Both the position numbers and the translations under genes were made by a program. Positions 7,005-51,139 of a stretch of 64,000 nt of DNA are shown here, in pieces (within the stretch, counting starts at the first letter, position 1; each line of letters begins with the position of its first letter). Where the stretch lies: NCBI GenBank assembly GCA_029006195.1, contig JAQXGH010000017.1, positions 1 to 64,000 on the forward strand, in the 5' to 3' direction. This DNA is from Bacillota bacterium (GTDB taxonomy: Bacteria; Bacillota; Clostridia; Peptostreptococcales; Anaerovoracaceae). The notes under the pieces were generated by a model. It did not search any database. It saw nothing but the letters and a program-made list of their open reading frames with translations, and had not been told where the DNA came from.

Positions 7005-7511
7005 CTAATGTCTTGTTGAACCGTCAGCCATAAGCATTTCAATGCCGTGCTTAAGTGAATCGATAACTGCGCCCAAACATTCCTTTGACGCCTTAGGGCT
7101 GCCGGGAACGTTGACGATGAGAGTCTTTCCTCTGATTCCGGAAGCTTCTCTTGAGAGCATGCCTCTAGGAGTGATTCTCATTGATTCTGCGCGCATTGCT
7201 TCTGGGATTCCAGGGCATTCTCTAAGAATCACTGATTTGGTAGCTTCAGGAGTGATGTCCCTTTGTGAGAAACCTGTGCCGCCAGTAGTGATAACCAGTG
7301 CGATATTCTTATTATCAGCGCAATCGATAAGTTCAGCTGCGATTTTGTCAAAGTCATCTGGTACGATAGTCCTATGTACTATAGTCCAGCCGTTTGCTTC
7401 AAGCATTTCGGCCAGAAGAGGACCGCTTAAATCTTCGCGTTCCCCAGCAAAACCGCTGTCGCTTACTGTGATTACTGCTGCTGTGTATTCCATAATAATC
7501 TCCTTATCCAA
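7005..7511 (-). CDS. mogA: MogA/MoaB family molybdenum cofactor biosynthesis protein
   Basis: AAVITVSDSGFAGEREDLSGPLL; LVITTGGTGFSQRDITPEAT; LIVNVPGSPKASKECL. Confidence 0.85.
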   Translation of the reverse strand: MDKEIIMEYTAAVITVSDSGFAGEREDLSGPLLAEMLEANGWTIVHRTIVPDDFDKIAAELIDCADNKNIALVITTGGTGFSQRDITPEATKSVILRECPGIPEAMRAESMRITPRGMLSREASGIRGKTLIVNVPGSPKASKECLGAVIDSLKHGIEMLMADGSTRH

Positions 7512-7532
7512 AAACTATAAACTTATGAGAGT

Positions 7533-8009
7533 CTAAGCTCTGTTGAAATCTCCGCTTTTGCCGCCGCTCTTGTGAAGGAGGCAGATTTCATCAATAACCA
7601 TATCCTTCTGGACTGCCTTACACATATCGTAAACAGTCAAAGCTGCGGCCGATACTGCAGTTAGAGCTTCCATTTCTACTCCGGTTACTCCCTTGCACTT
7701 AACAGTAGCGCTGATTTCTACAGCGCATTCTTCATCATTCATATTGAACTTGATGTCAATGCCTGTGAGCTGAAGCGGGTGGCACATGGGGATGATATCC
7801 CAGGTTTTCTTGGCTGCCATGATGCCTGCGATTTGAGCTGTAGCCAGAACATCGCCTTTCTTCATGCCACCAGTCTTGATCATGTTGTATGTATTATCGT
7901 TGACCAGAACTCTACCGGCTGCAACAGCAACTCTCTCGGTCACATCCTTGCCGCCAACATCTACCATTCTGGCTCTGCCTTCATCGTTAAAATGTGTAAA
8001 ATCACTCAT
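7533..8009 (-). CDS. moaC: Cyclic pyranopterin monophosphate synthase MoaC
   Basis: [64 protein letters not shown]. Confidence 0.95.
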
Positions 8010-8025
8010 GATATTCTCCTGTATA

Positions 8026-8988
8026 TTAACCGCCGATCATATTCATGTTTCTTCCGGCCTTGCTTCGATTTGTTTCGTCCATCACGTCACGAGATTTTGG
8101 CTTTTGCATAATAGACTGCTTAAGGACTTCGCGCATCTCATCTTCTGAAAGCCCCTTAAGTGGATATTCGCCTTCCAGGTGGAGGCATGGCTTTATCATA
8201 CCGTCTGCTGTTAAGCGGATCTTGTTGCAGCTGCCGCAAAATTCACAGCTTAGTGGACGGATAAGGCCAACACGGCCTTTGCTGCCAGGTAGTTTGTACA
8301 TCTGGGCAACACCGTCGTAAGTTGTTTTGCCGGAAATCGGCTCGAGCTCAGGCACTGCGTCCAAAACCGCACTGCATGAAATGTAGCCCAGGTCGCTGGC
8401 GTCAAGCCCTTCGCCAATAGGCATGAGTTCGATGAATCTGACGTCAATGGCTTGGTCCTTTGTCAAAGCTACAAAATCGGAAATTTCGTCGTCGTTAAAT
8501 CCCTTCATCAGAACAACGTTCATGCGTATGTCTGTGAAACCTGCTTCTTTGGCAGCTTCAATTCCGTCAAAGACCGTTTGTATATCGCCGATTCTTGTGA
8601 TATCTGTGAATTTATCCGCCTTTAATGTATCAAGGCTGATGTTTAGTCTTGTTACTCCTGCGTCCTTAAGACCCTGTGCATGCTGAGCTAAAAGAACTCC
8701 ATTTGTAGTAATGCAAAGTTCCTTAAGGCCATCGAGCTGGCCAAGCTCCTTACAGAATTTGACGATGCCCCTTTTGACGAGAGGTTCGCCACCTGTAATT
8801 CTGATTTTAGTCACTCCCAGGGAAACAGCAGCACGTGCAGCTGTTATGAATTCATCCATATGCATCATATCTTCGTGACGACGCTTACAGACACCATCCT
8901 CTGGCATGCAGTAGCGGCATCTCAGATTGCATAAATCAGTCACTGATATGCGCATATAGTTTATTTCTCTACCGTAATTGTCAATCAT
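8026..8988 (-). CDS. moaA: GTP 3',8-cyclase MoaA (radical SAM)
   Basis: [67 protein letters not shown]. Confidence 0.95.
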
Positions 8989-8989
8989 T

Positions 8990-10261
8990 TTAGAATAAGT
9001 GTACCTTTACCATGTCTCCTGCGTTTTTAACTTCGCCTGCTGAAATCACAATATAGCCATCAGCCTGGCTGAGCATTGTGATCGCGCTTGATTTCTTGTT
9101 GATCGGTGTAGCTTCAGGCTTATCACCAGCTGAGAGGCTTACAGTAATGCAAGTGTCTCTTGATGCTTTAGCCTTAGCCTCACTAGTAAGAAATGCTGGA
9201 ACAACAAATTCTGATTCTTCGGCAGACTTGCCAGTCATATACTCATTGATCGGCTCCATGACTACCATTTCGAATGACATCATAGCTGAAGCAGGGTGGC
9301 CAGGAACGCCTACAAGCAGAGTCTTTGTTTCATCGTCAAAACCGAGGATCGTTGGCTTACCAGGCTTAAGTGAAATGCCGTGGACAAAGATTCCAGGGTT
9401 TGAAACCTTGTCAAAGATTCTAGCTGTCGCATCCTTCTTGCCGACTGAACTGCCGCCTGATGCAGCGATGATATCAGCTGTTTTCATAGCTTCACGTACA
9501 GTCTTTTCCAGAAGTTCTTCGTCATCTTCCAGAAGTGACATCTGAGTTATCTCCATCCCGTACTTCTGAGCCAAACCCATAAGTGAATAGCTGTTGATAT
9601 CACGAACTTTGGCTGGAGCCAAAGGCGCATCGATAGCAACCAGTTCATCGCCTGTGGAAATAATAGCCATCTTCAGAGGTTTATAGACTTTGACTTCTGT
9701 TCTGCCAAGTGATGCTAATGTGCCGATTTCCTGAGGGCGGAGCTTTCTGCCTTTGGCAAGAACGATTTCGCCCTTCTTAACATCTTCGTCAATAGGAACG
9801 AAGTTGCCGTTTGGCTTTGGCTGCTCATAGAGCTCGATATAGATCGGCTCTGCGTCAGGATCAGCCGGAAGTGATGGAATATCACCGCCAGTTTTAGTCT
9901 TCTCTATGATTACTGTGCCATCAGCACCTTCAGGAACCATACCGCCTGTAGGCACATATGCACAAGTTCCGTGTTCGATTGTGAATTCAGGAACGTGTCC
10001 CATGCAGACTTCACCTATAAATTTAAGCTTTACAGGATTTTCAGGCGTTGCCCCGCGAACATCTTCACATTTAACTGCATAGCCGTCCATTGCGGTTCTG
10101 ACAAATCCAGGAATGTTTTCGTTTGATTTCACGTCTTCTGCCAAGGTTCTTCCAAAAGCTTCAGTAATGCTAACGCATTCTGTCTCAAGCCCTTTGGATT
10201 TAATAGCTTCCAGCATTTTGGCTTTGGCTGAAGCTACTGTTTCTAGTTTTGTAAAAATCAT
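8990..10261 (-). CDS. moeA: Molybdopterin molybdotransferase MoeA
   Basis: TAMDGYAVKCEDV; ISTGDELV; VRDINSYSLMGLAQKYG; ASGGSSVGKKDAT; GVPGHPASAMMSFEMVV. Confidence 0.95.
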   Translation of the reverse strand: MIFTKLETVASAKAKMLEAIKSKGLETECVSITEAFGRTLAEDVKSNENIPGFVRTAMDGYAVKCEDVRGATPENPVKLKFIGEVCMGHVPEFTIEHGTCAYVPTGGMVPEGADGTVIIEKTKTGGDIPSLPADPDAEPIYIELYEQPKPNGNFVPIDEDVKKGEIVLAKGRKLRPQEIGTLASLGRTEVKVYKPLKMAIISTGDELVAIDAPLAPAKVRDINSYSLMGLAQKYGMEITQMSLLEDDEELLEKTVREAMKTADIIAASGGSSVGKKDATARIFDKVSNPGIFVHGISLKPGKPTILGFDDETKTLLVGVPGHPASAMMSFEMVVMEPINEYMTGKSAEESEFVVPAFLTSEAKAKASRDTCITVSLSAGDKPEATPINKKSSAITMLSQADGYIVISAGEVKNAGDMVKVHLF

Positions 10262-22237: not shown

Positions 22238-22267
22238 TTGACATAAATTTGAGATGAGTCGTATAAT
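22238..22267 (+). promoter_or_regulatory. Sigma-70-type promoter upstream of Moco-like RNA copy 1
   Basis: TTGACA (22238-22243), 18-nt spacer, TATAAT (22262-22267). Confidence 0.75.
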
Positions 22268-22306: not shown

Positions 22307-22390
22307 CTCCGATTTTCATTCGACACTAGTTGCCGGTGAAAACGATAGGGTTACAGAAGCGATTTTGTAGCCTGCCATTGCGCAAAGGAG
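22307..22390 (+). ncRNA. Candidate Moco/Tuco RNA motif (riboswitch), copy 1
   Basis: 84-nt CTCCGAT...CGACACtAGtTGCCGG...ACGATAGGGT...GAAGCGATTT...GCCTGCCAtTGCGcAAAGGAG; aligns without gaps to 50791-50874; CTCC/GGAG terminal pairing; resembles the conserved 3' TGCCA..GCGAAGGA part of the E. coli moaA leader from memory. Confidence 0.7.
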
Positions 22391-22427
22391 ACCAGGCCTG
22401 GAAGGCTGGTTTTGCTTTGCTTTTTTT
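22382..22427 (+). terminator. Attenuator-type terminator overlapping the 3' side of the Moco-like RNA
   Basis: GCAAAG...CCAGgCCTggaAGGCTGG...CTTTGC followed by TTTTTTT; overlaps the AAAGGAG strand of the RNA. Confidence 0.65.
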
Positions 22428-22463
22428 ATATTATTTTCATAACAAAAACTGCATTTCGAGCTG

Positions 22464-22593
22464 TAAATCCTAACGGAATCAGTCCTATGGATTTAAGCCA
22501 GGGTGTTTTAGGGAAACTGAAGCGCCTCCCGATATTGGAAAGAAACGCAAAAACGGTATTTAGATTTAGTGATAGATTTTAAGTATTTATCCT
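22464..22593 (+). ncRNA. Unidentified candidate structured leader RNA
   Basis: TAAATCC...GGATTTA helix (22464-22470/22489-22495), then AGCCAGGGTG...AGGGAAACTGAAGCGCCTCCCGATATTGG, directly followed by a perfect attenuator terminator. Confidence 0.35.
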
Positions 22594-22635
22594 ACAGTTC
22601 TTTGAGTTCCTTTCGATTCAAAGAACTGTTTTTTT
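22594..22635 (+). terminator. Second attenuator-type intrinsic terminator immediately before the RBS of the surface-protein gene
   Basis: ACAGTTCTTTGA-gttcctttcga-TTCAAAGAACTGT 12-bp stem followed by TTTTTT; start codon at 22657. Confidence 0.8.
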
Positions 22636-22656
22636 ATTCTAGGAAAGGATGACAGT

Positions 22657-24207
22657 ATGAAGAGATTATTATCAATAATTATGGCTTTGGCGCTGGCTCT
22701 TACAATGTGCTTTTCACAGTCAGTAGTGTACGGCGCAGAAAAAACAACCGATAATGACTTCGTTGCCTTAAAGGTTTTTTACAAGGACAAACTGGTAAAG
22801 GAAATGACGCTTTATGACCTTGAAGAACTTGAGGAAGCTGAAGGGTCAGTCATTCGCTCATATTCAGGTTACAACAGAAATGTAACTTACAAGGGTAAGG
22901 AGTTAAAGGATCTTCACGGCCCGACTATCCAAGGCATTTTAGCTGAAGCAGGAATAGACGTAACTGCTCTTAAGAGTACAGATATCATTGAAATAAACGG
23001 CTATGATCAGTACGGTTACAAGTTCCAGATCGGCCAGCTCTTTAAAACAAGATACTATTACCCTAAGGCAGCTGATGAGGACTATCAGATCGGCGCGCCT
23101 GTCAAGCCAGAAACAATGGAAGGTGCAGTAGAAGTGCCTGCTATTCTGGCTCTTGACTGCAGAGAAGAAGAGGACGAGGATAAGCGTATTGACCGTCTGG
23201 TATTCGGCCAGGAATATCCTAATGAACAGAACTATACTCTGTTCACCAAGTACATGGTCGACTATAAATATAGAAACCTGAACGGTACTAGAATTTCAGA
23301 AATCAGAGTTAAGCCGGCTAAGGCAACTAAGTGGTCCAATGTAACAAGTCCAACTTACAAAAATAAGGCTAAAGTTCCTATCGGAAGTCAGATAAACTTT
23401 AAGACAAAATACAAACCGCCTCAGGACGTTGCATGGATCGTTTATACAACAGATGGAACTACACCTGATGTATCATCCAGTAAGTATAACTATTCAAGAT
23501 GGGGCGATAACAGACCGGTAGAAATTAATAAACTGGGCAAGATGACAGTCAAGGTTAAGACCATAGGCGTGGGCAAAAGTGATAGTTCAGTAATGACTCT
23601 TAACTACACAGTAATCGTTGGCAAACCTGCAAACTTTAGTGCCAAGTCCACAAACTACGACGAAGTAACCCTTAGCTGGGATAGCAATAAATACATAACA
23701 GGCTACGAAGTATACCAGCTGGTAGGTAAGAAGTACCAGCTCATAGATACAGTGATTCCGGAAAATGGTGAGGCACTGCCTGATAAGCATGAATATACTG
23801 TAAAAGATCTTAAGACTGGAACAGCATGCAAGTTCAAGGTGAGAGCATTCGTAACGGAAGGTGAAAAGACAACTTACAGTGCATATACAGCAATCAAATC
23901 AGTAACACCTGCTGTACTCGCGCCTGAAATAGAAGATATCTATCAGGAAGAAGAAGGCGATGGAACTGCTATGCTGCAGTGGTCAGTAATCGAAGGCGCT
24001 GACGGATACGAAGTACAGAGATCGCTTTATAAGTCAAAGAAGTTCGCCAAAGTTCTGACAACAGAAGGTAATGAAGAAATCTTTGCCAGCAACACAGGAC
24101 TTAAGACAGGCAAGACTTACTATTATAAGGTTAGAGCGTACAGACTTGTTGATGGTAAAAAGAAATACGGTTCATACTCGATAGTTAATTCTATAAAGAT
24201 TAATTAA
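22657..24207 (+). CDS. Secreted protein: SUOX/molybdopterin-fold-like module + chitobiase-C-like + FN3-like domains
   Basis: Signal peptide; VTYKGKELKDLHGPTIQGILAEAGID...DIIEINGYDQYGYKFQIGQLF...VPAILALD; two FN3-like blocks (VTLSWDSNKYITGYEVYQ; AMLQWSVIEGADGYEVQR). Confidence 0.65.
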   Translation: MKRLLSIIMALALALTMCFSQSVVYGAEKTTDNDFVALKVFYKDKLVKEMTLYDLEELEEAEGSVIRSYSGYNRNVTYKGKELKDLHGPTIQGILAEAGIDVTALKSTDIIEINGYDQYGYKFQIGQLFKTRYYYPKAADEDYQIGAPVKPETMEGAVEVPAILALDCREEEDEDKRIDRLVFGQEYPNEQNYTLFTKYMVDYKYRNLNGTRISEIRVKPAKATKWSNVTSPTYKNKAKVPIGSQINFKTKYKPPQDVAWIVYTTDGTTPDVSSSKYNYSRWGDNRPVEINKLGKMTVKVKTIGVGKSDSSVMTLNYTVIVGKPANFSAKSTNYDEVTLSWDSNKYITGYEVYQLVGKKYQLIDTVIPENGEALPDKHEYTVKDLKTGTACKFKVRAFVTEGEKTTYSAYTAIKSVTPAVLAPEIEDIYQEEEGDGTAMLQWSVIEGADGYEVQRSLYKSKKFAKVLTTEGNEEIFASNTGLKTGKTYYYKVRAYRLVDGKKKYGSYSIVNSIKIN

Positions 24208-24212
24208 TATAT

Positions 24213-27200
24213 TTGTTCGTTATTACATTAAAAAAGGAGAAAGTTATGAGTAAAGCAAGCAAAGGCAAGAGTATCATGGCTAAATTCCTGGGATTCTTCC
24301 TGGCAATAGCAATGGTATTCACAATGATGCCGCTGAATGCAAATACGTATTCATACGCTGCCGAAAACGAAATGACTCTGCAGACACCAGAACTGGTAGT
24401 TACAGGTTCAGCAGTTATCGGTAACGGAGGCGTATATTCAGCGGACAATGTTGGTCTCGAGAAATCATACACTCGTGATCAGCTGAAGCAAATGGTTACT
24501 AGCGGAGCAGGCGGTGCGGACGTTCTGTATTCAGCACAGAAGACAAAAGAACCGTACACAAAGCTTCTCTACAGAGCAACTGGTGTTTGGGTTACATCAC
24601 TTCTCGAAGGAACAGCTTATGATGCATCAACAGATGTATTACAGCTGATCGCTTCAGACGGCTATGTAACTTCATTCGACCCAGCTCGTAAAGAGCTGCA
24701 GGGAACAAAGATCAATGGTCTTAACGTAACTAGATATGCATTCCCTGGAATCATGAAAGGCGACGAAGCTAATGCAAAGGAAGTTCCAGCTATGCTGGCA
24801 TATGCATCAACTGAAAGCGAAGTTGAGGACCCTGAAACTGCAGGAGCAGAGAAAAATCAGCTCACACTGCACATTGGTCAGGAAACTGTAACAGAGCACA
24901 ACAATGGCGCTTACGCTAAGAAGATCAAGACAATGGTCGGCGGAGATAAGCTTACAGAAGTTGCTCTCACAGTAGGATCAGAAACATTCACAAGAGCTGA
25001 CGTACTGGCAATGCCATACGCAGAAAGAACATTCAATTACACAACATCAAATGGTAACGCTACTGATAACGTAAAGGGCGTTCCTATGTCAGTACTTCTG
25101 GATGGATGTAACGAAAACGATACAGTAAACTTCGAAGCAGCGGATGGATATGCAGTTGCAGCTTCAGGAATGACTGTTAAGCAGCTCATCGACGGCAACT
25201 TCATTCTGGGCTATGAAGTAAACGGTCAGGGTCTTTACAGCACAAAGAAGAAGGACCCTAGCGTATACGGTTTCTTCAACCTCTATGGCGATGGCGATGC
25301 ATATGCGAAGCCTGCGAAGCTGGTTAACAAGATTTCAGTCGTATCATCAGAAGGAATCGACTTCACAACAAGCCCATATAAGCACATCACAAACGGTGGA
25401 CAGTCAGGTTCATCACCTTATAACATCGACGCTATCACAGGTGCAACTCTCACAGTAGAAGGCCCTGGAGTAAAGTCAAGTGTACCACTCCCAGTAAGAG
25501 ATCTGGAAGGACAGAATAAGGGTGCTGTTCGTGGTGTTTACACAGATGAAAGAAACGGCAAAGAAACTACTCGTTCATACGAAGGTATCGATCTCTACTA
25601 CATTCTTAACAACATGCAGACTGGTACAAACGGTATCATTCTCACAGATAAGGCTAAGAAAGTAGAAATCAAGAACAGAAACAGAAGGACTATTGCAACA
25701 TTAACAATTGATGAAATCAATAAAATGCATGAGTCGGACCATCCTGCAATCGTAGCATACGGTACTGCAAATGAAGATGGTACAAATGAAAGACCTTTCG
25801 TATACAACGGAGCAACAGGTGAAGATTTAGAACTTGGTAATAACGACGGATGTCTGAAGCTGGTTTGTGATACAAGCAGCATGGCAGATCAGACATATAA
25901 GACATTTGGAAACATGGCTTATATCTATGTTGAAGAAGATACAACACCTGGATTTAAGCATGACAAGGAACCATATAACCATAAGGACAATACTAAGTAC
26001 ATCGTAACACTCACTGGTGACAAGATGGGTAAGGAAGCTCTCTACACAGTAGATCAGCTGGAAGACATGGTCACTTATGATGCAGATGGAAACGTAGAAG
26101 CCGGAGGTATCGGTTATCGTGATGAATATAGCTTAGCAAACTCAACATACTGGTATGTAAATACTTATGAAGGCGTTAAGCTCTGGGATCTGCTGGTTAA
26201 GTCAGGACTGGATCCTGCACTGGCAGATGATGACAGCGTTAAGGTTTCATTCGGATCAACAGACAACTACACTGGTTTTGATACATTCACAACTAAGCAG
26301 CTGGCTGACCCTAACAACTTCAAGTTCTACGAAAAGAACGCTGCTGACTTAAACGACGGCAAGTATGAATCAACAGATGAAGCTGACCTTATCAAGGCTG
26401 GTTATCCTGTACTCCTCTCATACGGTGTAAACGGATATCCATATGTTAAGAGCAGCAAGCTCGACGGTTACCTCAGCGGTCTGCAGAACGATGGCGGTCC
26501 ACTGAGAGTTATCTGGGGCAAGACATCATATAACCACGCTAACGGATCAAACCAGGCTAAGCTGGTAGACAGAATCTTCGTTGGCGGAAACACATATCAC
26601 TATGCTACACATAAGTACACTGACGCAGTTGCAAATCCAGCTCAGAGTGCTCAGAGTGCACTTCAGGATAACAAGATCACAGTAAATATCTACAATGGCG
26701 CTGGTGATGCTGCTCGGCTGATCAAGTCAGAGGAATACACAGTAGGCGATATCGAAGAGATCATCTATGATGGTGGCCTTACTGCTAACCAGAAGAAGGT
26801 TGCAGCTGTTAAGAACTTCTATGAAGTAAAAAAGAACGGATTTACATATTCAGATATTTACGAAGGTATCAACCTCAACTACTTCCTGGAGAACGTAGTA
26901 GAACTTCCAGGTGCTGAAGGTACGATCTCATTTAACGGTGCTGACGAACAACATGATCTGGGAACAGTACTTTCAATTGATAACGGCGTTAATAACAAAG
27001 AAGGCATCAGCGGACTTACACCAGTACTCGCTTATGGTAAGAACGGTTACCCTCTGGTAACAGATAAGGGAGAGGGATTTGTAAAGGCTGCAAACAACAA
27101 CAACGGACCTCTGCAGGTAATCATCCCTAGCAAGAGCGCTGGCGAAGCTTTCTCAGCATATAACAACGTAACAGAAATCTCAATCAACCTGACAGCTGAT

Positions 27201-30200
27201 AAGTATGCACATATAAATGAACCATACGATCAGTACAAGAACGAAACACTTGAAATCACAGGTGATGGAGCTAGAAATAATGTAACATTAACAGTTGCTG
27301 ACCTCGAAGGTAAGCAGAAGCTGGCTCAGACAACTACATTCAGTATCAAAAAGAATAATAAGGGTACTGTATCAGAAACATATAGAGGCTTCAACCTCTA
27401 TAACCTGCTCACCTCAACAACAGTTGGCCTCAAGAGCAGTGCTAACGGCATCATTGTTACAGACACTAATGAAGCAACATATAAATTCTCAATGGATGAC
27501 ATCAGAAAGATGTACACGAACACTCTGTCTAAGGAAGATGTTCCAGTAATGCTGGCATATGGTATCAACATTGATGGAACAGAATATCCACTGGTTCCAC
27601 AGAGAGATTCAGAAGGCTACGCTACAGATGCTGGCAAAGTTATCGAAAACCACGGTGGACCACTGAAGCTGATCATCGGACAGACTGACGAATCAGACAG
27701 CAACGGTTCAAAGTGCATTAAGAATGTAGCTAAGATCGAAATCACAGCTGCAGAAACAGATAGCTGGACTCATGATAGTGGAGTATTCACGCAGTATCTT
27801 GATGATGAAGCTCTGACACTTCAGGTTGTTGATAACGACAACAAGGAACTCTTTGTTAAGACTTATACAACAGCTGAACTTGAAGCTATGACAAGCATCG
27901 TTGAAAGAGCTGATGTCATGACTACTTCAAAGGAAACTTGGGAAGGTCTTAACCTTTGGAAGTTCGTGCTTCAGGAAGCTGGAAGCATTGAGGGAGTTAG
28001 CGATCCTGTTTCAGTAACAGCAATCGCTAAGGATGGATTCTCTAAGGAACTGAGAAGTATCTTCGGTCTTGATGCTCTTCAAAACGGTGTACAGGACGGT
28101 ACAACATATGTTCCTATCCTCCTGGCATACGCAAAAAACGGATATCCACTCGTACCTGGCGGCGGCAAGAACGGGGGAACTCCAGGTGAAGGTTTCGATG
28201 CAACAATCGGAAACGACGGTGGTCCAATCAGGCTCGCTACACACCTTAACCAGGGTGCAGCACTTTCAGAAACAAAAACGATCGTAGTTAAGGTAGGCGG
28301 TTCAAGTGCTCCTGAAACTAAGCCTGGCGATTTCACAATTGCTGGTTCAGTTGATAAGATAATCTCACTTGACGACCTGAATAAGTATGAAGGCAGAGAA
28401 GCTACCTACACTTGTAAGAAGAGCACTGACGTAGTTAAGGGCGTTTCATTAGAAACAATCCTTAAGGATAACGGCATTGATGTTGCAACTACTAAGATCA
28501 CTCTCAATGCAACTGACAACTACGAAAAGACTGAAACAACATATAACAACATTACTCTGGCAGATGCAATCGATCAGAAGTACTTCGTAGCATGGGAAGA
28601 ACAGAAGGCTGATGGTCAGTTTGTTCCTATCCACGACACTAACAAGGACGGATCAGAAACATACTGGAGAATCTACAGAAACTACAACGAATCAATCGGA
28701 AAAGAACCAACAGTTGACTGGAGAAATAAGTGCACAGGACTTCTGGGAATCACAGTAGATATCCCTCAGGTAGTTAAGTTTAAGACTCTCGTAGCTGATG
28801 GTGATGCACTTCCAATGGCAGGCATCAGAGCCGTATCAAAGGCTGAAGACGGCAGCATGTGGCTGGCAACTTACGGACAGGGTATCGTAAAGCTTAATGA
28901 AAAAAAGGAAGTAGCAGCTATTTATAACACTGCTTCAACTCCAGGACTTAGGGTAGACGTAGTATCAGCTGTATGCCCAGATGATGAAGGCGGCGTATGG
29001 TTTACTCAGAACGCCAGCTATGAAAATCCTGAAAACAATCAGGGTGTTGGTTACCTTAAGGACGGCGAAGTAACATACTATACCGAAGCTGACGGAAACA
29101 CAATTCCTAACAACTATGTTCAGGAAATCAAGATCGATGCAGACGGAAACGTATGGTTCGGTTCATTTGGCGGCTTAACTAAGTACACTCCAGAAACTGA
29201 CACATGGCAGACTTGGAATGAAAATGACGGATTCCCTGCAAGATCAATCGATAATATCGAAATCGATGCTAATGGCGGAATCTGGTGTGGATTCTATCCA
29301 AACGGAGAAGGTACACAAACAGATCCTTATACAGGCGGATTCGCTTACTTCAAGGATGGCGTAGTAACTTGCCCAGATACATATAAGTACAAAGCAGCAT
29401 ACGATGATGCAAGCGGCAGCTCAATGCTGGCTCAGGTATGGATCAGAGACATTGCTATCGATAAGGATGGCGGTGCTTGGATCGTAGCATCAGGAACAAG
29501 ATCAGGTATCGTAAACGAAGGCGGTACTGTATGGTACGTGAAGGCTCCTGGTGAAAAGCCTCTTAAGTACTCAGGTAAGGAATTACTTGGAGACGCTCTT
29601 GACGGAGCAGACAATGCAGAAGTTAGAATGGTAGCATGTGATGCAGATGGTGGACTTTGGTTCGGTACATCAGCAGATGGTATCATATACGTTAAGAATC
29701 CAGCTGTAAGCGCAGATCACAGCATGGCTGTAACAGCAGAATACAGCAAGGAAACAGGCTCATGGGATGCAAGTCTCAACAACATTTACAGCCTCGACAT
29801 CATCGATGACGTGGTAATCGCAGGTTCAGCAAACGGCCTTGCATGGAAGGGAGGACTGGCTAAGTCAATCGTTTATAACAGCGGTAGCGAAGAACCGGAT
29901 GATCCAGAGGCTGCAGAACTGAACGATGCAATCGCTAAGATCGACATCGAAAACATCACTCTGGATGATGAAGAAGCAATCAATGCATTAGTTAAGCAGT
30001 ATGCTGAAATGACTGAAGAACAGAAGGCTCAGGTCGAAAACCCTCAGGCTCTGGTTGATGCAGTTAATAAGATCGCTGAAACTAAGCAGGTAATTGCTGA
30101 AACTAAGAAAGAAATCGTTACAACAGAAAGCTACGTAAACTACAAGGATTATGCAGCTGACGATATGATGTATCTGTGGATCATGTCACAGAAGGCAGAG

Positions 30201-30839
30201 AAGGCTATTGAAAACGCTAAGTCAATAGCAGAAGCTCAGACTATTATGGATGGATACATGGGCGCTATCATGGATACTCCATCAAAGTTCTCAACTACTC
30301 AGGTTAAGAACGTAGCAGCAGCTTCATACTCATTCGACAGTAACGAAGTTACTTGGGATGCTAAGGAAGGCGCAGTATCATACGATATCTATAGAGCTAC
30401 TAAGAAGAACGGTAAGTATACTAAGGTTGGAGAAGCAACAGGCACTTCATATGTAGACACTGGCCTGCCAACAGGTAAGTACAGATACTACAAGGTAAAG
30501 GCTGTAGACTACTTCGATCACTACTCCAAGTTCTCAGCTAAGAAGTATGCTAAGCCACTGCCAGAAGCACCAGTAATCACATCAGTAACTCCAGGTGAAA
30601 ATACAGCAGAACTCACATGGGGCGCTGTAAACGGTGCAACAGGATACAGAATTTACTACAAGCGTGCAAAGGCTAAGGCTAAGTACGTTAACGTAACAAG
30701 ACCTGAGCAGCTTGAAAGAGTAATCAAGAAGCTTAAGTCTGATAAGGAATACAAATTCAAGATCAGAGCTTACACTAAGGTAGGAAAGACTAAGTACTAC
30801 GGTAAGTGGTCAACAGTTGTTAAGGAAACAATCCTGTAG
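24213..30839 (+). CDS. Giant secreted protein (about 2200 aa): about 8 SUOX/molybdopterin-fold-like modules, a beta-propeller segment and FN3-like repeats
   Basis: ORF from 24213; more probable ATG at 24246 (AAAAAGGAGAAAG RBS). Repeated pattern W/YEGv.L..LL...G...v.f...D.Y......L....P.lLaYg.nGyPlv....GGPLr.i; propeller-like VQEIKIDADGNVWFGSFGGLTKYTPETDTWQTW; FN3-like VTWDAKEGAVSYDIYRATKKNGKYTKV. Confidence 0.7.
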   Translation: MFVITLKKEKVMSKASKGKSIMAKFLGFFLAIAMVFTMMPLNANTYSYAAENEMTLQTPELVVTGSAVIGNGGVYSADNVGLEKSYTRDQLKQMVTSGAGGADVLYSAQKTKEPYTKLLYRATGVWVTSLLEGTAYDASTDVLQLIASDGYVTSFDPARKELQGTKINGLNVTRYAFPGIMKGDEANAKEVPAMLAYASTESEVEDPETAGAEKNQLTLHIGQETVTEHNNGAYAKKIKTMVGGDKLTEVALTVGSETFTRADVLAMPYAERTFNYTTSNGNATDNVKGVPMSVLLDGCNENDTVNFEAADGYAVAASGMTVKQLIDGNFILGYEVNGQGLYSTKKKDPSVYGFFNLYGDGDAYAKPAKLVNKISVVSSEGIDFTTSPYKHITNGGQSGSSPYNIDAITGATLTVEGPGVKSSVPLPVRDLEGQNKGAVRGVYTDERNGKETTRSYEGIDLYYILNNMQTGTNGIILTDKAKKVEIKNRNRRTIATLTIDEINKMHESDHPAIVAYGTANEDGTNERPFVYNGATGEDLELGNNDGCLKLVCDTSSMADQTYKTFGNMAYIYVEEDTTPGFKHDKEPYNHKDNTKYIVTLTGDKMGKEALYTVDQLEDMVTYDADGNVEAGGIGYRDEYSLANSTYWYVNTYEGVKLWDLLVKSGLDPALADDDSVKVSFGSTDNYTGFDTFTTKQLADPNNFKFYEKNAADLNDGKYESTDEADLIKAGYPVLLSYGVNGYPYVKSSKLDGYLSGLQNDGGPLRVIWGKTSYNHANGSNQAKLVDRIFVGGNTYHYATHKYTDAVANPAQSAQSALQDNKITVNIYNGAGDAARLIKSEEYTVGDIEEIIYDGGLTANQKKVAAVKNFYEVKKNGFTYSDIYEGINLNYFLENVVELPGAEGTISFNGADEQHDLGTVLSIDNGVNNKEGISGLTPVLAYGKNGYPLVTDKGEGFVKAANNNNGPLQVIIPSKSAGEAFSAYNNVTEISINLTADKYAHINEPYDQYKNETLEITGDGARNNVTLTVADLEGKQKLAQTTTFSIKKNNKGTVSETYRGFNLYNLLTSTTVGLKSSANGIIVTDTNEATYKFSMDDIRKMYTNTLSKEDVPVMLAYGINIDGTEYPLVPQRDSEGYATDAGKVIENHGGPLKLIIGQTDESDSNGSKCIKNVAKIEITAAETDSWTHDSGVFTQYLDDEALTLQVVDNDNKELFVKTYTTAELEAMTSIVERADVMTTSKETWEGLNLWKFVLQEAGSIEGVSDPVSVTAIAKDGFSKELRSIFGLDALQNGVQDGTTYVPILLAYAKNGYPLVPGGGKNGGTPGEGFDATIGNDGGPIRLATHLNQGAALSETKTIVVKVGGSSAPETKPGDFTIAGSVDKIISLDDLNKYEGREATYTCKKSTDVVKGVSLETILKDNGIDVATTKITLNATDNYEKTETTYNNITLADAIDQKYFVAWEEQKADGQFVPIHDTNKDGSETYWRIYRNYNESIGKEPTVDWRNKCTGLLGITVDIPQVVKFKTLVADGDALPMAGIRAVSKAEDGSMWLATYGQGIVKLNEKKEVAAIYNTASTPGLRVDVVSAVCPDDEGGVWFTQNASYENPENNQGVGYLKDGEVTYYTEADGNTIPNNYVQEIKIDADGNVWFGSFGGLTKYTPETDTWQTWNENDGFPARSIDNIEIDANGGIWCGFYPNGEGTQTDPYTGGFAYFKDGVVTCPDTYKYKAAYDDASGSSMLAQVWIRDIAIDKDGGAWIVASGTRSGIVNEGGTVWYVKAPGEKPLKYSGKELLGDALDGADNAEVRMVACDADGGLWFGTSADGIIYVKNPAVSADHSMAVTAEYSKETGSWDASLNNIYSLDIIDDVVIAGSANGLAWKGGLAKSIVYNSGSEEPDDPEAAELNDAIAKIDIENITLDDEEAINALVKQYAEMTEEQKAQVENPQALVDAVNKIAETKQVIAETKKEIVTTESYVNYKDYAADDMMYLWIMSQKAEKAIENAKSIAEAQTIMDGYMGAIMDTPSKFSTTQVKNVAAASYSFDSNEVTWDAKEGAVSYDIYRATKKNGKYTKVGEATGTSYVDTGLPTGKYRYYKVKAVDYFDHYSKFSAKKYAKPLPEAPVITSVTPGENTAELTWGAVNGATGYRIYYKRAKAKAKYVNVTRPEQLERVIKKLKSDKEYKFKIRAYTKVGKTKYYGKWSTVVKETIL

Positions 30840-30886
30840 GCAAATAAATAGTAGGATTACTTCAAAAAAGAAGTATAATAAAGATG

Positions 30887-30911
30887 AAGGGCTAGGCTAA
30901 ATGCCTAGCCC
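30887..30911. other. Perfect intergenic hairpin without T-run
   Basis: AGGGCTAGGC-taaat-GCCTAGCCCT between the giant surface protein and the ABC permease. Confidence 0.7.
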
Positions 30912-30936
30912 TCATTGCAATTTACCGGAGGATTTT

Positions 30937-31971
30937 ATGAACAGCACAAAGAACAGCATAAAATCGAATAGAAGTGCATTACTTAACGTAATGCTGTTTT
31001 TTGTGTTGCTCATAATCGTTATGGCAGCGCTTTGTCTAGGTAAATATTCCATCGCACCAGGCGACTGCATTAGAATTCTTATAGACCAGATCATGCCGGG
31101 GAAGTCTGGAGTCGATCCGATGGATGAGAACGTCCTTATGGGAGTCAGACTCCCGAGAACAATGGCTACAGTAATAGTGGGTGCGGCATTGTCTCTTTCG
31201 GGCGCGGTATATCAGGGCATCTTCAAGAACCCGCTGGTATCACCTGATTTCTTAGGTGTATCCGCAGGGGCATGCGTTGGTGCAGCCATCGCCATTCTCT
31301 TAATGATGCCGGCAGGATTCGTACAGGTATTCGCATTCTTTGGAGGAATACTGGCGGTAACGCTTACAGTTCTCATACCAAAAGCAATAAGAAGTAATTC
31401 CAGCATCATGCTGGTTCTGGCAGGCATAATCGTCAGCGGAGCCATGTCATCCATACTGGGATTCATCAAATATATAGCTGACCCTGAAACTCAGCTGGCA
31501 GCCATCACATACTGGCAGCTGGGCAGCTTCGCATACGTTGATAACAAGGCAGTACTGCAGATACTGCCGCTTGTTATAGTCGCATCAGCCATTATCATAG
31601 CAATGTCCTGGTGGATCAACGTGCTGTCTCTTGGCGACAGCGAAGCACAAAGCCTGGGAGCGGACGTAAACCTGCTCCGCGGAATCTGCATCGTTTGTTC
31701 AACAGTACTGACAGCAAGTGCTGTATGCATTTCAGGAACCATCGGATGGATAGGTCTTGTTATACCTCATTTCGGCAGAATGCTGGCTGGTTCAGACAAC
31801 AGAAATCTGCTTCCTGCAGCTTGCCTTATGGGCGGAATATTCATGCTGGTGGTGGATACAGCAACTAGATTGATCGGCCCTGCAGAAATGCCTGTAAGCA
31901 TTCTCACAGGACTCATCGGCGCGCCGTTTTATGCATGGCTTTTATATAAGCAGAGGAGTACGCTCAGGTAG
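30937..31971 (+). CDS. FecCD/BtuC family ABC transporter permease
   Basis: VRLPRTMATVIVGAALSLSGAVYQGIFKNPLVSPDFLGVSAGA; GTIGWIGLVIPHFGRMLAGSDNRNLLPAACLMGGIFMLVVDTATR. Confidence 0.92.
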   Translation: MNSTKNSIKSNRSALLNVMLFFVLLIIVMAALCLGKYSIAPGDCIRILIDQIMPGKSGVDPMDENVLMGVRLPRTMATVIVGAALSLSGAVYQGIFKNPLVSPDFLGVSAGACVGAAIAILLMMPAGFVQVFAFFGGILAVTLTVLIPKAIRSNSSIMLVLAGIIVSGAMSSILGFIKYIADPETQLAAITYWQLGSFAYVDNKAVLQILPLVIVASAIIIAMSWWINVLSLGDSEAQSLGADVNLLRGICIVCSTVLTASAVCISGTIGWIGLVIPHFGRMLAGSDNRNLLPAACLMGGIFMLVVDTATRLIGPAEMPVSILTGLIGAPFYAWLLYKQRSTLR

Positions 31972-31979
31972 GAGGAAGT

Positions 31980-32765
31980 ATGAATACGATTTATGAAGTA
32001 AGTAATCTGACATATAAATATCCTTCCGGAGACAGAATGGTGCTTGATGGCGCAAGCCTTAGACTTGGTGAGGGCGAGATACTCTGCATTCTGGGACCTA
32101 ATGGTGCCGGCAAAACGACGCTTCTTAACTGCCTGGCAGGTCTTATAAAGCCAAAGAATGGTGAAATAAAGCTTAAGGGCAGAAGCATTAATGATATGAA
32201 GGTCAAAGACATAGCTCAAATTGTTGGCTACGTACCGCAGGTGCACACGCCAGCCTTTGATTACAAGGTTAAAGACTTCGTATTAATGGGCGCATCGCCA
32301 GGAATGGGAATGTTCGAAAGACCATCAAAAGAAGACGAAGAGGCCTGCATTAAAGTACTGGCAGGAATGAATCTAGAGCATCTGGCTGAGAAATCATACA
32401 TGAACATCAGCGGTGGCGAAAGGCAGCAAGTGCTTATAGCCAGAGCCATACTGCAGAAGCCATCGGTTATACTCTTTGACGAACCGACTGCTCACCTTGA
32501 CTACGGCAATCAGCACAGAGTGCTCAAGCGAATAAAGAAAATGTCCGAAGACGGATATTCGGTAATAATAACAACGCATAACCCTGATCACAGCCTGCTG
32601 CTTGGCGGTAACGTAGCCATAGTGGGAAGAGACGGTAAGATAATTCAGGGCAAATGCGAAGAAATGATAACAGAAGAAAATTTACGCAAAGTCTATGATA
32701 TCGACCTCAGACTCATGTGGGTCGAAGAACTTGGAAGGAAAGTATGTCTAGTACCAGAACTTTAA
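31980..32765 (+). CDS. FecE/BtuD family ABC transporter ATP-binding protein
   Basis: Walker A GPNGAGKTTLLN; signature ISGGERQQVLIARAI; Walker B VILFDEPTAHLD. Confidence 0.95.
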   Translation: MNTIYEVSNLTYKYPSGDRMVLDGASLRLGEGEILCILGPNGAGKTTLLNCLAGLIKPKNGEIKLKGRSINDMKVKDIAQIVGYVPQVHTPAFDYKVKDFVLMGASPGMGMFERPSKEDEEACIKVLAGMNLEHLAEKSYMNISGGERQQVLIARAILQKPSVILFDEPTAHLDYGNQHRVLKRIKKMSEDGYSVIITTHNPDHSLLLGGNVAIVGRDGKIIQGKCEEMITEENLRKVYDIDLRLMWVEELGRKVCLVPEL

Positions 32766-33823
32766 CTAAGATAATTGCTATGATCCTGTGCCTTGTGATG
32801 GCACTTACATGTTTGACTGCATGCGGAGGCAGCTCGGCTTCCAGCGATGAAGTTTTATCTCAAAACGGAGATAAACCAGGAACCGTCATAGAAGAAACAG
32901 ATGAATATGTTACTATAGTAGATCAGGCTGGAAGAGAAGTTACAGCCAAGAAGAAACCTGAAACTATAGCTCTTTGCTACAGAGTAATAATAAGATTTCT
33001 TCTTAATCTGGAGCAGGGAGATAAGATTGTCGGCGTAGGTAAGTCGGAGAAATTCCTCGATGAACTGGAACCAAATATTGCTAATGCAGTAGATGTAGGT
33101 AAGGGCGTGGCAGATGTGGAAGCAGTTGCGGAGCTTAATCCGGATATCTTCTTACATAAGGCTTCTGATGTAGAAACTCTGGACGCAATTCAGGATCTGG
33201 GGATACCATCTGTCGGCATCAGAGTAGAGAATCAGGAAGACATGGTTACAGCCTTTGAAATAATGGGTAAAATCTGTGGCAAAGAAGACAAAGCAAAGGA
33301 GCTCATAGATTTTTACAATTCACACATAGAGAAGTGCCAGAGCCTGACTAAAGATATAGAGAATAAAAAGTCTGCAATCGTTATGGGTTCATCCATAGGC
33401 AAGGTTGCTGACGGATCAATGCTGCAGGGCAATATGATCGAAATCGCAGGCGGAATTAACTGCGCTGACGAGCTTAAGGCTACAGAACTTTGGCCGACTG
33501 CCGGTGCGGAGCAGATATTCGCATGGAACCCTGATTACATCTTCATAACTAATCAGGAAGGTGCTGTATATGATGCGGATGACATATTAAATGATCCGGC
33601 CTGGTCAGAAATTACAGCAGTCAAGAACAAAGATGTTTATGTAATGCCGGCTAAGGAAGACTCCTGGGAACTCCCTGGAATCGTCAGCGTTATCGGCATT
33701 GAATATATGATAAGAACAATGTACCCGGATCTTCTCAGTGACGAAGAACTGGAAAAGGATGTTAACGATTTATACGAACTTTCTTATGGCAAAACTTTTG
33801 AAAGGGACGAATTGGGTTACTAA
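32744..33823 (+). CDS. FecB/BtuF-type ABC transporter substrate-binding lipoprotein
   Basis: Lipobox LTCLTACGGS; VTIVDQAGREVTAKKKPETIAL; AVAELNPDIFLHK; start moved to ATG 32744 after GGAAGGAAAG. Confidence 0.88.
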   Translation: MSSTRTLTKIIAMILCLVMALTCLTACGGSSASSDEVLSQNGDKPGTVIEETDEYVTIVDQAGREVTAKKKPETIALCYRVIIRFLLNLEQGDKIVGVGKSEKFLDELEPNIANAVDVGKGVADVEAVAELNPDIFLHKASDVETLDAIQDLGIPSVGIRVENQEDMVTAFEIMGKICGKEDKAKELIDFYNSHIEKCQSLTKDIENKKSAIVMGSSIGKVADGSMLQGNMIEIAGGINCADELKATELWPTAGAEQIFAWNPDYIFITNQEGAVYDADDILNDPAWSEITAVKNKDVYVMPAKEDSWELPGIVSVIGIEYMIRTMYPDLLSDEELEKDVNDLYELSYGKTFERDELGY

Positions 33824-35268
33824 TGGGAAAGCTATCATTGAACTTGAAAAAAACAGTGGCAATAATCACTGTCATATTGTTTGTTTTGCTTCAGTTCACG
33901 ATACTGATTCCGCAGGAAGCTTTAGCTAGAGACACAGCTCTCGAAATCAGAGTGCAGTATCTAATGGAACGTGGCGATATGGTAAGACTAAAAACTACCA
34001 TAAGCAGCGCAGATCTTGATGCTGCAGCTCAGGAGTATTGCTTTGCCAATATCAGAAATACTGGTAACATTCTGGTAATGATGGCAAAGGGAGTTCCAAT
34101 AACAGAAATCCTTAGGGCTGCCGGAATTGATATCAATTCAGTTGACTGCATCTATCCTGATACAGATGATGCTTACGGTAAGGATCCTCAGAGCGGAACC
34201 ATTCACGTTAAGTACACTAGAAATGATATTGAAGGCGTGGGATACTACTATCCTAAGCTGAATGCAATAGATGAAACAGAGGAGGGAGAATTCGTAACCT
34301 ACTTTACTAAGTCGGGTTCCGTGATCACTCCTTTAGAAGGCTTTGACGAAGGCGCAGTGCAGGTGCCTGCGATCCTGGCAACGGAATTTGGCGAGGGCTC
34401 AGGGCAGGGGGAACTTGCTGAAGACCAAAAGCTGAGTCGTAATAAGACTTATAGATTTTGCATAGGCCAGACTAAACTTAAGGCCGGTAAGAAGACCACT
34501 AGTGCCGACGTAACCGCTAAGGAATCGGCGCACAGCATTTACGGTCTGACTGTAGTGCTAAAAGGCTACCCGGTTAAGGGCGTAAACCTTTCTGTAGACG
34601 ACCCTGATGTTGTGATAGGAAGTCAGAAGACTGTCCACGCCAGCATCGTAGGGGATGAAACTTTCGCAGAGCTTCTTGATACAGGAACGCTGAAGTGGAA
34701 GTCCAGCAATACGGCTATCGCTACAGTCGATCAGAATGGCGTGGTTACTTTTAAGAAGAAGGGTAAGGTAACCATTACAGCAACTGCCCAGGATGGCACA
34801 GTTGGTAAAATCACTTTTGGATCCAGTGGATCAAGTACGGTTGACGATCCTAGCTCAGGCGGCTCATCGTCTGGCTCGCATTCGGGAAGCGGAAGTTCGT
34901 CATCGGAATCAGGTTCATCGGCTTCCGGCAATTCTCAGGTAAAGAATCCAGATAACAGAGATTCTGACGGTCTGGAACAGATGATAGAAATACAGGACCG
35001 CGATAAAAACAAGAAACAGCACAAAATCGCATCAGTAACTACGATTACAGCTAGAGAAATAAGCATTGGCGACCAGGTAATGCCTCTTCCTATGGAGGAA
35101 ATATCAGCGCAGGATCAGCAAAGACTCGAAATGGCGGATAACGCCCAGAGCCTGGAAGCTAATAAGCAGTTTACAGCAGCGGCAGGAGCAACAGCGGCCG
35201 GTTCGGCGCTGGCAGCATGCGCGGCAGGTGTAGCGCTTAGAATTAGAAGATACAAGATGGAGGTATAA
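33823..35268 (+). CDS. Surface protein: SUOX-like module, Ig-like (BIG2-type) domain, Ser/Gly linker, C-terminal TM anchor
   Basis: N-terminal TM/signal; GVPITEILRAAGIDINSVDCIYPD...VQVPAILATEF; KWKSSNTAIATVDQNGVVTFKKKGKVTITATAQDG; AAAGATAAGSALAACAAGVALRIRRYK. Confidence 0.65.
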   Translation: MGKLSLNLKKTVAIITVILFVLLQFTILIPQEALARDTALEIRVQYLMERGDMVRLKTTISSADLDAAAQEYCFANIRNTGNILVMMAKGVPITEILRAAGIDINSVDCIYPDTDDAYGKDPQSGTIHVKYTRNDIEGVGYYYPKLNAIDETEEGEFVTYFTKSGSVITPLEGFDEGAVQVPAILATEFGEGSGQGELAEDQKLSRNKTYRFCIGQTKLKAGKKTTSADVTAKESAHSIYGLTVVLKGYPVKGVNLSVDDPDVVIGSQKTVHASIVGDETFAELLDTGTLKWKSSNTAIATVDQNGVVTFKKKGKVTITATAQDGTVGKITFGSSGSSTVDDPSSGGSSSGSHSGSGSSSSESGSSASGNSQVKNPDNRDSDGLEQMIEIQDRDKNKKQHKIASVTTITAREISIGDQVMPLPMEEISAQDQQRLEMADNAQSLEANKQFTAAAGATAAGSALAACAAGVALRIRRYKMEV

Positions 35269-35269
35269 C

Positions 35270-36247
35270 ATGTCAGAATTTGTGAAGAGCATCCTTAGAG
35301 CCATAAGCAGCTCACTGCAGATTCCAACTATAATCATATTGATAATCCTTATACTGGTTACAATAGTAATGCTAGGAGCTATCATAGCTGAAGTATTCAC
35401 AGAAAGAAGAAGGCTCACAGACAGCATCCCTAGCCTTGTAGATGACATGCAAAAAAAATCCATACCGCAGCTCAAAACTGTAATAGAAGAGAGCGGTATC
35501 TTAAGAAGGCAGAAGGAAGCGGCTTTAGAGCTCCTTAACAGAAGTGATTATCCGGCTAATACCAGAGAAGCTCTGGCCAGACAGCTTATCGCCGATGAGG
35601 AAAGTCACTATAACAGCCTCACTAAAGTAACTGATATCATAGCTAGAATTGCACCTATGTTCGGCCTCATGGGAACACTGATCCCGCTGGGTCCTGGACT
35701 TATGGCGCTGGCACAGGGCGATACAAAGACACTGTCAGATTCACTGCTTATAGCCTTTGATACAACAGTTGCCGGCCTCATCAGTGCGGCAGTATGTTAC
35801 GTGATCTCAGGCATCAGAAGAAACTGGTATGAAGGCTACATGGTAGGCCTTGAAACTATCATGGAAACTATTCTGGAAGAACAGAGCAGAACTGACCTGC
35901 CTGCTGAAGCTAAGGCTCCTGAATCAGAAGCTGCCGAAGAAACTGTTCAGGCAGAATCTTCATATAAACCACCACAGAAAGAAACTGAAGAGCTGCCTAT
36001 ACCTGAACTGGTGTTGGCTCCGCAGGTAGAAGTCATACCGGCTCCAATTACTGAGCTGGAACCTGAAGTGATACCTGCACCGGTTTTAGAGCCTATACCT
36101 GGGCCACAGCCAGAAGTGATTTCAAAACCTAATAACGAGCCACCGAAGGCTGAGGCAAACACTGAAGAAGAAATCAAAGAGGTATCAGATGCTGATCTGG
36201 CATCGATTCTGGATTCGATCCTCAAGAATTCGGAGGTGGATAAATAA
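35270..36247 (+). CDS. MotA/TolQ/ExbB proton channel family protein with Pro/Glu-rich C-terminal tail
   Basis: IIARIAPMFGLMGTLIPLGPGLMALAQGDTKTLSDSLLIAFDTTVAGLISAAVCYVIS; C-terminal tail rich in P and E. Confidence 0.85.
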   Translation: MSEFVKSILRAISSSLQIPTIIILIILILVTIVMLGAIIAEVFTERRRLTDSIPSLVDDMQKKSIPQLKTVIEESGILRRQKEAALELLNRSDYPANTREALARQLIADEESHYNSLTKVTDIIARIAPMFGLMGTLIPLGPGLMALAQGDTKTLSDSLLIAFDTTVAGLISAAVCYVISGIRRNWYEGYMVGLETIMETILEEQSRTDLPAEAKAPESEAAEETVQAESSYKPPQKETEELPIPELVLAPQVEVIPAPITELEPEVIPAPVLEPIPGPQPEVISKPNNEPPKAEANTEEEIKEVSDADLASILDSILKNSEVDK

Positions 36248-36561
36248 TGAGACTTAACCAAGGCAAGGGCAGGCTGCGCAGGACGCGAAAAGCCGAAGAC
36301 TTCAGCCCTATGGAGGGCGTGGGCAATATGGCGGATGCCATGCTGGTATTTGCCTGCGGACTCATAGTAGCGCTCATACTCAGCTGGAATGTTGATGTGT
36401 CTGAACAGGGCACCATCAATCAGAGAGCTAACAACAAATACGAGGTCGAAGGAATGGATGACGGCCAGGAACAGGAAATTGAAGTGAACAAGGATCTGCA
36501 GGAGATGGGTAAAGTCGTCTACGATCCGGAAACAGGAAAGTACTATGTTATCGAAGAATAG
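36247..36561 (+). CDS. DUF2149/ExbD-TolR-like small membrane protein
   Basis: FSPMEGVGNMADAMLVFACGLIVALILSWNVD (Asp in single TM as in ExbD/TolR); adjacent to the TolQ-like gene. Confidence 0.7.
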   Translation: MRLNQGKGRLRRTRKAEDFSPMEGVGNMADAMLVFACGLIVALILSWNVDVSEQGTINQRANNKYEVEGMDDGQEQEIEVNKDLQEMGKVVYDPETGKYYVIEE

Positions 36562-37042
36562 AATTGCAAAGGCTATAGCCTTTGCCTTAATGGCATTAAT
36601 GATGTGCTTTGCCATGACAGGCTGCGGCACAGATGATATCGATATTTCACCATACGCGGATGAAACGCTGACAATTACAGGCGTTCAGGACGAAGATATC
36701 GTATTGACAATAGCCGATCTAAAGGCTATGGACTGCGAAACCATAAAGACTCACAGCACTAGTGACAAGATAGGCGATGTTAAGGTTACAGGACCGACAC
36801 TTGAAACGGTTCTTGCACAGTACGGCGCGTCGCTGGCTGATTATCATTCAGCACATTTCTATGGCCGTGACAACTATGATATCGTGCTATACGATGACTA
36901 TTTGGCTGAGCATGATCTTTATCTGACTTTTGGCGAAAGCGGGGAGCCGTGGGATGAGGAGAGTGCGCCGCTGAGGGTGATTATACCGGAGTCGGATTCG
37001 GCGTATTGGATTCGTATGTTAGAGAAAATTGAATTTGAATAA
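36545..37042 (+). CDS. Lipoprotein with a single SUOX/molybdopterin-fold-like module
   Basis: Lipobox FAMTGCGT; VLTIADLKAMDCETIKTHST...VTGPTLETVLAQYGASLADYHSAHFYGRDNYDIVLYDDYL...APLRVIIPESDSAYWIRMLEKIEF. Confidence 0.65.
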   Translation: MLSKNRIAKAIAFALMALMMCFAMTGCGTDDIDISPYADETLTITGVQDEDIVLTIADLKAMDCETIKTHSTSDKIGDVKVTGPTLETVLAQYGASLADYHSAHFYGRDNYDIVLYDDYLAEHDLYLTFGESGEPWDEESAPLRVIIPESDSAYWIRMLEKIEFE

Positions 37043-50738: not shown

Positions 50739-50767
50739 TTGACAAATGGGGTTTTCGGTGCTATGAT
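50739..50767 (+). promoter_or_regulatory. Sigma-70-type promoter upstream of Moco-like RNA copy 2
   Basis: TTGACA (50739-50744), 17-nt spacer, TATGAT (50762-50767). Confidence 0.75.
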
Positions 50768-50790: not shown

Positions 50791-50874
50791 CTCCGATCCT
50801 TGTACGACACCAGATGCCGGCAAGGACGATAGGGTCAGTGAAGCGATTTGCTGGCCTGCCAATGTGCGAAGGAG
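50791..50874 (+). ncRNA. Candidate Moco/Tuco RNA motif (riboswitch), copy 2
   Basis: 84 nt, same length as copy 1 and about three-quarters identical by hand alignment; located upstream of ferredoxin + aldehyde:ferredoxin oxidoreductase; T-run at 50941-50947 after GC-rich GCCTGCGCAC. Confidence 0.75.
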
Positions 50875-51139
50875 TCATAAGCGGGTTTAAGTACAGCCGT
50901 AGGCGATGCTTAGATTCGAGGTTGGACTTGCCTGCGCACTTTTTTTATTGAAATTTATACGAATTTGATTCTTTTAGACTCATTTTGTCGATTCTAAAAC
51001 TTCTTTGAATTCATATGATTGCTTGCTTGTTTTTGATAAAAAAGGTGCGCAGACAGGTCCAGCGAATGTACATATATCGGATATATTTATGAGTTAGCAA
51101 TGGTTCATTATAGAAGTTTTTGAGGAAAGGAAGAGGCTA

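Follow-up and report, generated by a model that had tools for sequence, protein, structure and literature searches.

The window analysed here is a stretch of 64,000 nucleotides from a gut-type Clostridia member of the Anaerovoracaceae (assembly GCA_029006195.1, contig JAQXGH010000017.1, positions 1 to 64,000), and it carries two related RNA elements, referred to as copy 1 and copy 2 (Table 1). Copy 1 opens a long leader, in which the promoter is followed by this element, its terminator, a standard RF01055 element, a second terminator and the gene of a surface protein. Given that the RF01055 element is located just 3' of copy 1, the leader is a tandem one. Copy 2 has its own promoter and terminator, and it is followed by the genes of a ferredoxin and of an aldehyde ferredoxin oxidoreductase (AOR).

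An earlier note, made from the sequence alone, described copy 1 as an 84-nt element closed by CTCC/GGAG, preceded by a consensus promoter and overlapping a T-run terminator, and all of these features were borne out: the promoter lies 39 nt before the element, and the terminator pairs GCAAAG (22382–22387) with CUUUGC (22415–22420), followed by seven T (22421–22427). The gapless match between the two copies was also confirmed, with 64 of 84 positions identical; the copies differ by compensatory changes in P2 and P4, P2 being UUUUCA/UGAAAA versus UCCUUG/CAAGGA. The window contains two instances of the core pattern, as opposed to none in 100 shuffles. The position of copy 1 upstream of a surface-protein gene was correctly described; however, the RF01055 element that lies in between was overlooked, and this is, according to Rfam, the only RF01055 element in the window.

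Table 1. Features of the window discussed in the text
Feature	Position	Strand	Remarks
moeA-moaA-moaC-mogA operon	7005–10261	minus	Pfam identities
Promoter, copy 1	22238–22267	+	TTGACA-18-TATAAT, 12/12 consensus matches
Divergent Moco/Tuco-type aptamer, copy 1	22307–22390	+	84 nt, P3-less
Copy 1 P1	22307–22310/22387–22390	+	CUCC/GGAG
Copy 1 P2	22313–22318/22337–22342	+	
Copy 1 J2/4	22343–22347	+	CGAUA only, no P3
Copy 1 P4	22348–22358/22363–22373	+	GCGA cap 22359–22362
Copy 1 P5	22374–22375/22382–22383	+	two pairs
Intrinsic terminator, copy 1	22382–22427	+	5' arm is the 3' strand of aptamer P5/J5-1/P1; GCAAAGGAG
Standard RF01055 Moco/Tuco aptamer	22442–22561	+	P3-less, GAAA loop; 56.5 bits, cut-off 36
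Separate intrinsic terminator of the RF01055 element	22594–22636	+	
Surface protein, first gene after the tandem	22657–24207	+	fn3 / Fn3_assoc domains
Surface protein, 2208 aa	24213–30839	+	Oxidored_molyb (molybdopterin-binding) domains
FecCD-type ABC importer	30901–33823	+	permease, ATPase, binding protein
Promoter, copy 2	50739–50767	+	TTGACA-17-TATGAT
Divergent Moco/Tuco-type aptamer, copy 2	50791–50874	+	RF01055 31.2 bits
Intrinsic terminator, copy 2	50864–50946	+	5' arm is the aptamer P5/J5-1/P1 strand
Capture arm	51038–51060	+	complement of the copy 2 terminator 3' arm and U-tract; -25.8 kcal/mol, 0/100 shuffles
Ferredoxin, behind copy 2	51140–51526	+	
AOR (AFOR family), behind copy 2	51547–53376	+	

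Homology to the Moco/Tuco riboswitch family

The RF01055 family is characterized by the helices P1, P2, P4 and P5 around a conserved junction, and all of these are present in copy 1. A search with RF01055, which had been proposed in the earlier note as a check, gave no match on copy 1 even at E 10, and the score of copy 2 is below the curated cut-off of the family (36 bits); no other Rfam family fitted either copy in searches up to E 10. It was through their relatives that the homology became apparent. When a covariance model (R1) was derived from the two copies of the window only, its search of 150 related genomes gave 59 matches, spread over 35 of them, and 11 of these matches coincide in position with independent RF01055 matches (L047, L050 and L055–L063). 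At L047, R1 covers positions 1001–1089 with 60.0 bits and RF01055 positions 993–1105 with 49.7 bits; the respective scores are 48.5 and 49.5 bits at L056, and 48.6 and 76.7 bits at L055. Within the genus, RF01055 passes its cut-off on two GCGA-type relatives (39.5 and 38.8 bits) and gives 29.9–33.4 bits on three further elements; unlike the type members, the variant elements of this genus are mostly under the cut-off or missed. When a second model (R2), built from 46 sequences, was used, RF01055 was above its cut-off on 15 of 20 distant matches.

Covariation among the homologous leaders is conserved and strong. In the 46 sequences of the variant family, 96.1% of the cells are paired and 14 pairs have changed on both sides, a level not attained in 500 shuffles or in any slid control. 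Both kinds of element have in common the P1 pairing CUCC/GGAG, GA in J1/2, CGWYA before the P4 foot GGG and CCU behind it, a P5 of two pairs, and GGAG preceded by RAA. No variant has a P3 stem, as in the Tuco sub-type. The coincident matches of the two models, together with the shared junction, identify copy 1 as belonging to the Moco/Tuco fold, in a form that lacks P3, an assignment that we consider close to certain from these comparisons. The earlier designation as a Moco/Tuco-like riboswitch was therefore right as to kind, but the sub-class, the tandem setting and the predicted ON platform had been missed.

That the leader is bound by a protein or is an ordinary attenuator, resembling the Moco RNA by chance, would agree with the failure of copy 1 to match any Rfam family at E 10; nevertheless, the 11 loci where R1 and RF01055 coincide in coordinates, the relatives on which RF01055 passes, covariation over the whole fold and the association with AOR and molybdenum enzymes make this highly improbable. 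It could also be argued that copy 1 is a degenerate, non-functional remnant of a tandem Moco riboswitch, given its lack of an RF01055 score and the known tandem arrays of this RNA (PMC2408646, PMC9481103). However, R2 gives copy 1 a score of 100.1 bits, although copy 1 is itself one of the 46 sequences from which R2 was built, its helices are still compensated, its promoter is perfect and its terminator is matched, and the order of a variant followed by a standard element recurs in another genome (G027) ahead of a homologous gene; a remnant of this kind is hardly credible.

Regarding the ligand, the tungsten cofactor (Tuco) is the likely candidate. The assignment of P3-less elements to Tuco was itself an inference of the founding paper, and the ligand is unstable, direct binding having been demonstrated not even for the type members (PMC2408646). 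Taken as a whole, the explanation that these elements form a divergent, ON-type sub-class of Tuco type, for which we infer both the ligand and the ON direction, seems to us quite probable. A further consequence is that RF01055 under-counts the riboswitch family, and that the branch to which the window copies belong has been overlooked.

The G-C branch and its terminators

This branch is marked by the first pair of P5, which is G-C in the variants versus C-G or U-A in standard elements. The P3-less (Tuco/Wco) sub-type of RF01055 (Regulski et al. 2008, PMC2408646) has the same P1/P2/P4/P5 architecture, tandem arrangements and association with Mo/W genes, and its junction letters CUCCGA, CGWYAGGG and RAAGGAG are the same in the variant. 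In contrast with this sub-type, the variant has G-C instead of C-G in P5, GYGA or GYAA instead of GAAA, no 11-nt receptor, and a terminator that is built from the aptamer strand (predicted ON) and not separate. Among the G-C class, 77 of 80 resolved P4 loops are GNRA loops other than GAAA (three are GAAA) and the 11-nt GAAA receptor in P2 is absent in 87 of 90 elements, versus GAAA loops in 49 of 55 and an absent receptor in 16 of 75 in the other class. Many of the sequences behind the class counts given here and below, including those of terminators and genes, are related and hence no independent samples, so the Fisher value is not readable as a probability; in addition, a few elements that are of G-C type by eye (G123:C8, G142:C35 and G141:C69) were mis-typed, with the end of P1 mis-located, an error that can only have lessened the class contrast. 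Both window copies have a GCGA loop and lack the 11-nt receptor.

Exceptions to the GAAA loop and receptor were reported in the founding paper, and thus this contact is common rather than strictly defining; four GCAA members without the receptor, already noted in 2008, may be early sightings of the G-C branch (PMC2408646). In the window's relatives, P2 forms a short hairpin that includes a mismatch (A-C) and a pair covarying between A-U and U-A, and it is plausible that this hairpin works as an alternative receptor. It is proposed that the first P5 pair was flipped from C-G to G-C, and that the contact of the GAAA loop with the 11-nt receptor was replaced by a GYGA-type GNRA loop combined with a short P2.

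These changes could also mean that the branch is a separate riboswitch class on the Moco RNA scaffold, with a molybdopterin precursor, tungstate or molybdate, or a different metal-pterin as ligand, and with the P5 flip and the new P2/P4 contact as marks of an altered specificity. The consistent peripheral change and the G-C flip indeed go with a distinct class of genes, and variant and standard elements co-occur in the same genomes and even in one leader; on the other hand, the junction bases beside the presumed pocket are identical in both classes, and there are graded intermediates, such as elements with a G-C pair in P5 and GAAA loops, or elements that pass RF01055. A class with another ligand is considered unlikely, and the Tuco-type sub-class is retained as the preferred reading.

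In 78 of 79 elements with a G-C pair in P5 and a terminator, the 5' arm of the terminator is the P5/J5-1/P1 strand of the aptamer, versus 6 of 55 in the other class, where separate terminators were found in the remaining 49. In a simple-hairpin comparison, loss of the aptamer strand weakens the terminator hairpin of copy 1 from -19.1 to -4.3 kcal/mol, and that of copy 2 from -32.1 to -6.7 kcal/mol. Because this strand is shared, the aptamer and the terminator of copy 1 are mutually exclusive. Elements with GCAAAGG carry UUUGC or UUGCAC ahead of the U-tract in 26 of 29 cases, and those with GCGAAGG carry GCGCR in 20 of 21; the J5/1 letter and the terminator arm change together, and the overlap is maintained in this way. 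An aptamer and a terminator that exclude each other correspond to an ON layout, and the case for a ligand-ON architecture of the G-C branch is, at the sequence level, strong. Without ligand, the terminator would take up the 3' strand of P5/J5-1/P1 (GCRAAGGAG) and transcription would stop; with ligand bound, P1 and P5 would hold this strand and allow read-through. In the case of copy 2, such an ON switch would restrict the synthesis of AOR to conditions in which the cofactor is available.

Standard elements from the same clade mostly have a separate terminator, to which their P1 strand is significantly complementary in 17 of 38 cases; this combination corresponds to an OFF layout. As a point against the proposed division, overlapping terminators also occur in five standard elements ahead of TupA/TupB; long terminators overlapping the P1 strand were seen before TupA at G042:C4:3245-3371, G022:C13:38820-38945, G048:C97:14680-14821 and G031:C30:4774-4915. 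The Moco riboswitch of E. coli moaA belongs to the same fold family; it differs in having P3, in controlling synthesis genes and in being an OFF switch (PMC2408646). No ON-type or AOR-linked Moco riboswitch was found in the literature searched, which covered few of the subscription papers. The ligand of this riboswitch class has resisted direct handling, and the example that was assayed turns expression off; a large branch whose predicted layout before a tungsten AOR is uniformly ON would offer a clean reporter system for the discrimination of Moco and Tuco, and could show which nucleotides discriminate, for example the first P5 pair or the P2/P4 contact.

Downstream of copy 2, a capture arm complements the 3' arm and U-tract of the terminator. 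Among the elements with a CUGCGCR-U6 terminator end, 19 have a near-perfect capture arm shortly downstream, whose letters change together with the terminator arm between genomes; elements with a CUUUGC-type terminator have no capture arm. It was also observed at L067, L069, L072, L076, L082, L084 and others, and accompanies nearly every CUGCGC-type terminator. The pairing is available to read-through RNA only, and it may serve to hold the read-through state or to affect mRNA stability. The miRNA-type Rfam matches at 50905–51076 merely reflect the inverted repeat of the terminator arm and the capture arm. This repeat was also considered as a MITE, which was rejected, as an exact core pattern was present in 4 of 51 genomes, a single time in each and always beside the switch.

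The genes behind the two branches and the tandem leader

The earlier note had assigned the switch to the uptake-like cluster and AOR and not to Moco synthesis, stating that the moeA-moaA-moaC-mogA operon has no such leader. This was right, given that neither RF01055 nor R1 finds anything before the operon, and the assignment is conserved. The genes that follow the G-C class encode AOR in 75 of 90 cases, a Mop-type aldehyde oxidoreductase in seven and the surface cluster in three; together with the Oxidored_molyb surface proteins, these enzymes represent the association with Mo/W cofactor genes. Members of the class are spread over no fewer than 15 families of the phylum. A further scan, made by pattern, named Clostridia as hosts, for example Anaerovorax odorimutans, of which the cultured strain SL.3.17 has the element, Family XIII and Tepidimicrobium.

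The standard branch is mainly followed by uptake genes. Within the genus, the genes behind standard elements are those of a TupA/TupB-like tungstate importer and those of the Oxidored_molyb surface cluster with its FecCD importer; in related genomes, MoeA follows. The name of the first importer relies on NCBIfam matches below the cut-off: the binding protein matches TupA and nothing else, and TupB is the equivalog that fits the permease best. A single ligand, the tungsten cofactor, would explain both branches, with import being stopped and the enzyme being started. The cluster at 22657–37042 of the window, with the Oxidored_molyb surface proteins, the FecCD importer, MotA/ExbB and DUF2149, recurs behind RF01055 elements in the genus and looks like a system for the acquisition of molybdenum/tungsten or pterin.

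The order of a variant and then a standard element was found in the window and in G027, in both cases ahead of homologous surface genes. G030 has a variant without a standard partner, and G016 and G037 have variant-variant doublets ahead of AOR. The antiterminator of the standard element in G027 reaches -15.5 kcal/mol (2 of 200 shuffles equally good), and its OFF direction is well supported by this pairing; the antiterminator of the window element is weak (-6.1 kcal/mol, 111 of 200) and does not support an OFF direction, but with its separate terminator this element is still probably an OFF switch. Copy 1 would then be an ON switch ahead of a standard element, probably OFF, that controls the surface and uptake cluster, and if so, the cluster would be expressed only with ligand on the first switch and none on the second. 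To read this tandem as a band-pass gate is speculative.

Tandem Moco and Wco riboswitches have been described that likewise have two full switches and two expression platforms per leader, and same-class doublets are listed as pseudo-cooperative (PMC9481103); the window leader, in contrast, combines two sub-classes with apparently opposite terminator logic, and offers a natural case of two switches of one family that seem to work in opposite directions. A serial ON and OFF arrangement, as predicted for the window, is also present in NOT A AND B gates, where an AdoCbl OFF switch is combined with a c-di-GMP ON switch (PMC9481103). The ligands of those gates differ, whereas the window aptamers belong to one family and may respond to a single ligand, within a limited range of its concentration, or to two related ligands. 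A wider idea is that the Moco/Tuco riboswitches of the whole phylum comprise two branches of opposite sign, one with GAAA, the 11-nt receptor and C-G in P5 that turns metal uptake off, the other with GNRA and G-C in P5 that turns a tungsten enzyme on, and that a few genomes, the present one among them, have both in series, as a band-pass filter made of RNA, or else an A AND NOT B gate, that responds to cofactor; it is put forward tentatively, as slightly more doubtful than probable.

Divergent pairs of elements were also observed (L038, L044/L155, L071/L159, L078 and L064/L146), with an ON-type element directed to AOR or Mop and a standard RF01055 element directed to the uptake set on the opposite strand. 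The AOR operon of the window also holds a radical SAM protein of the TrsS / tetraether-synthase type (55883–57289).
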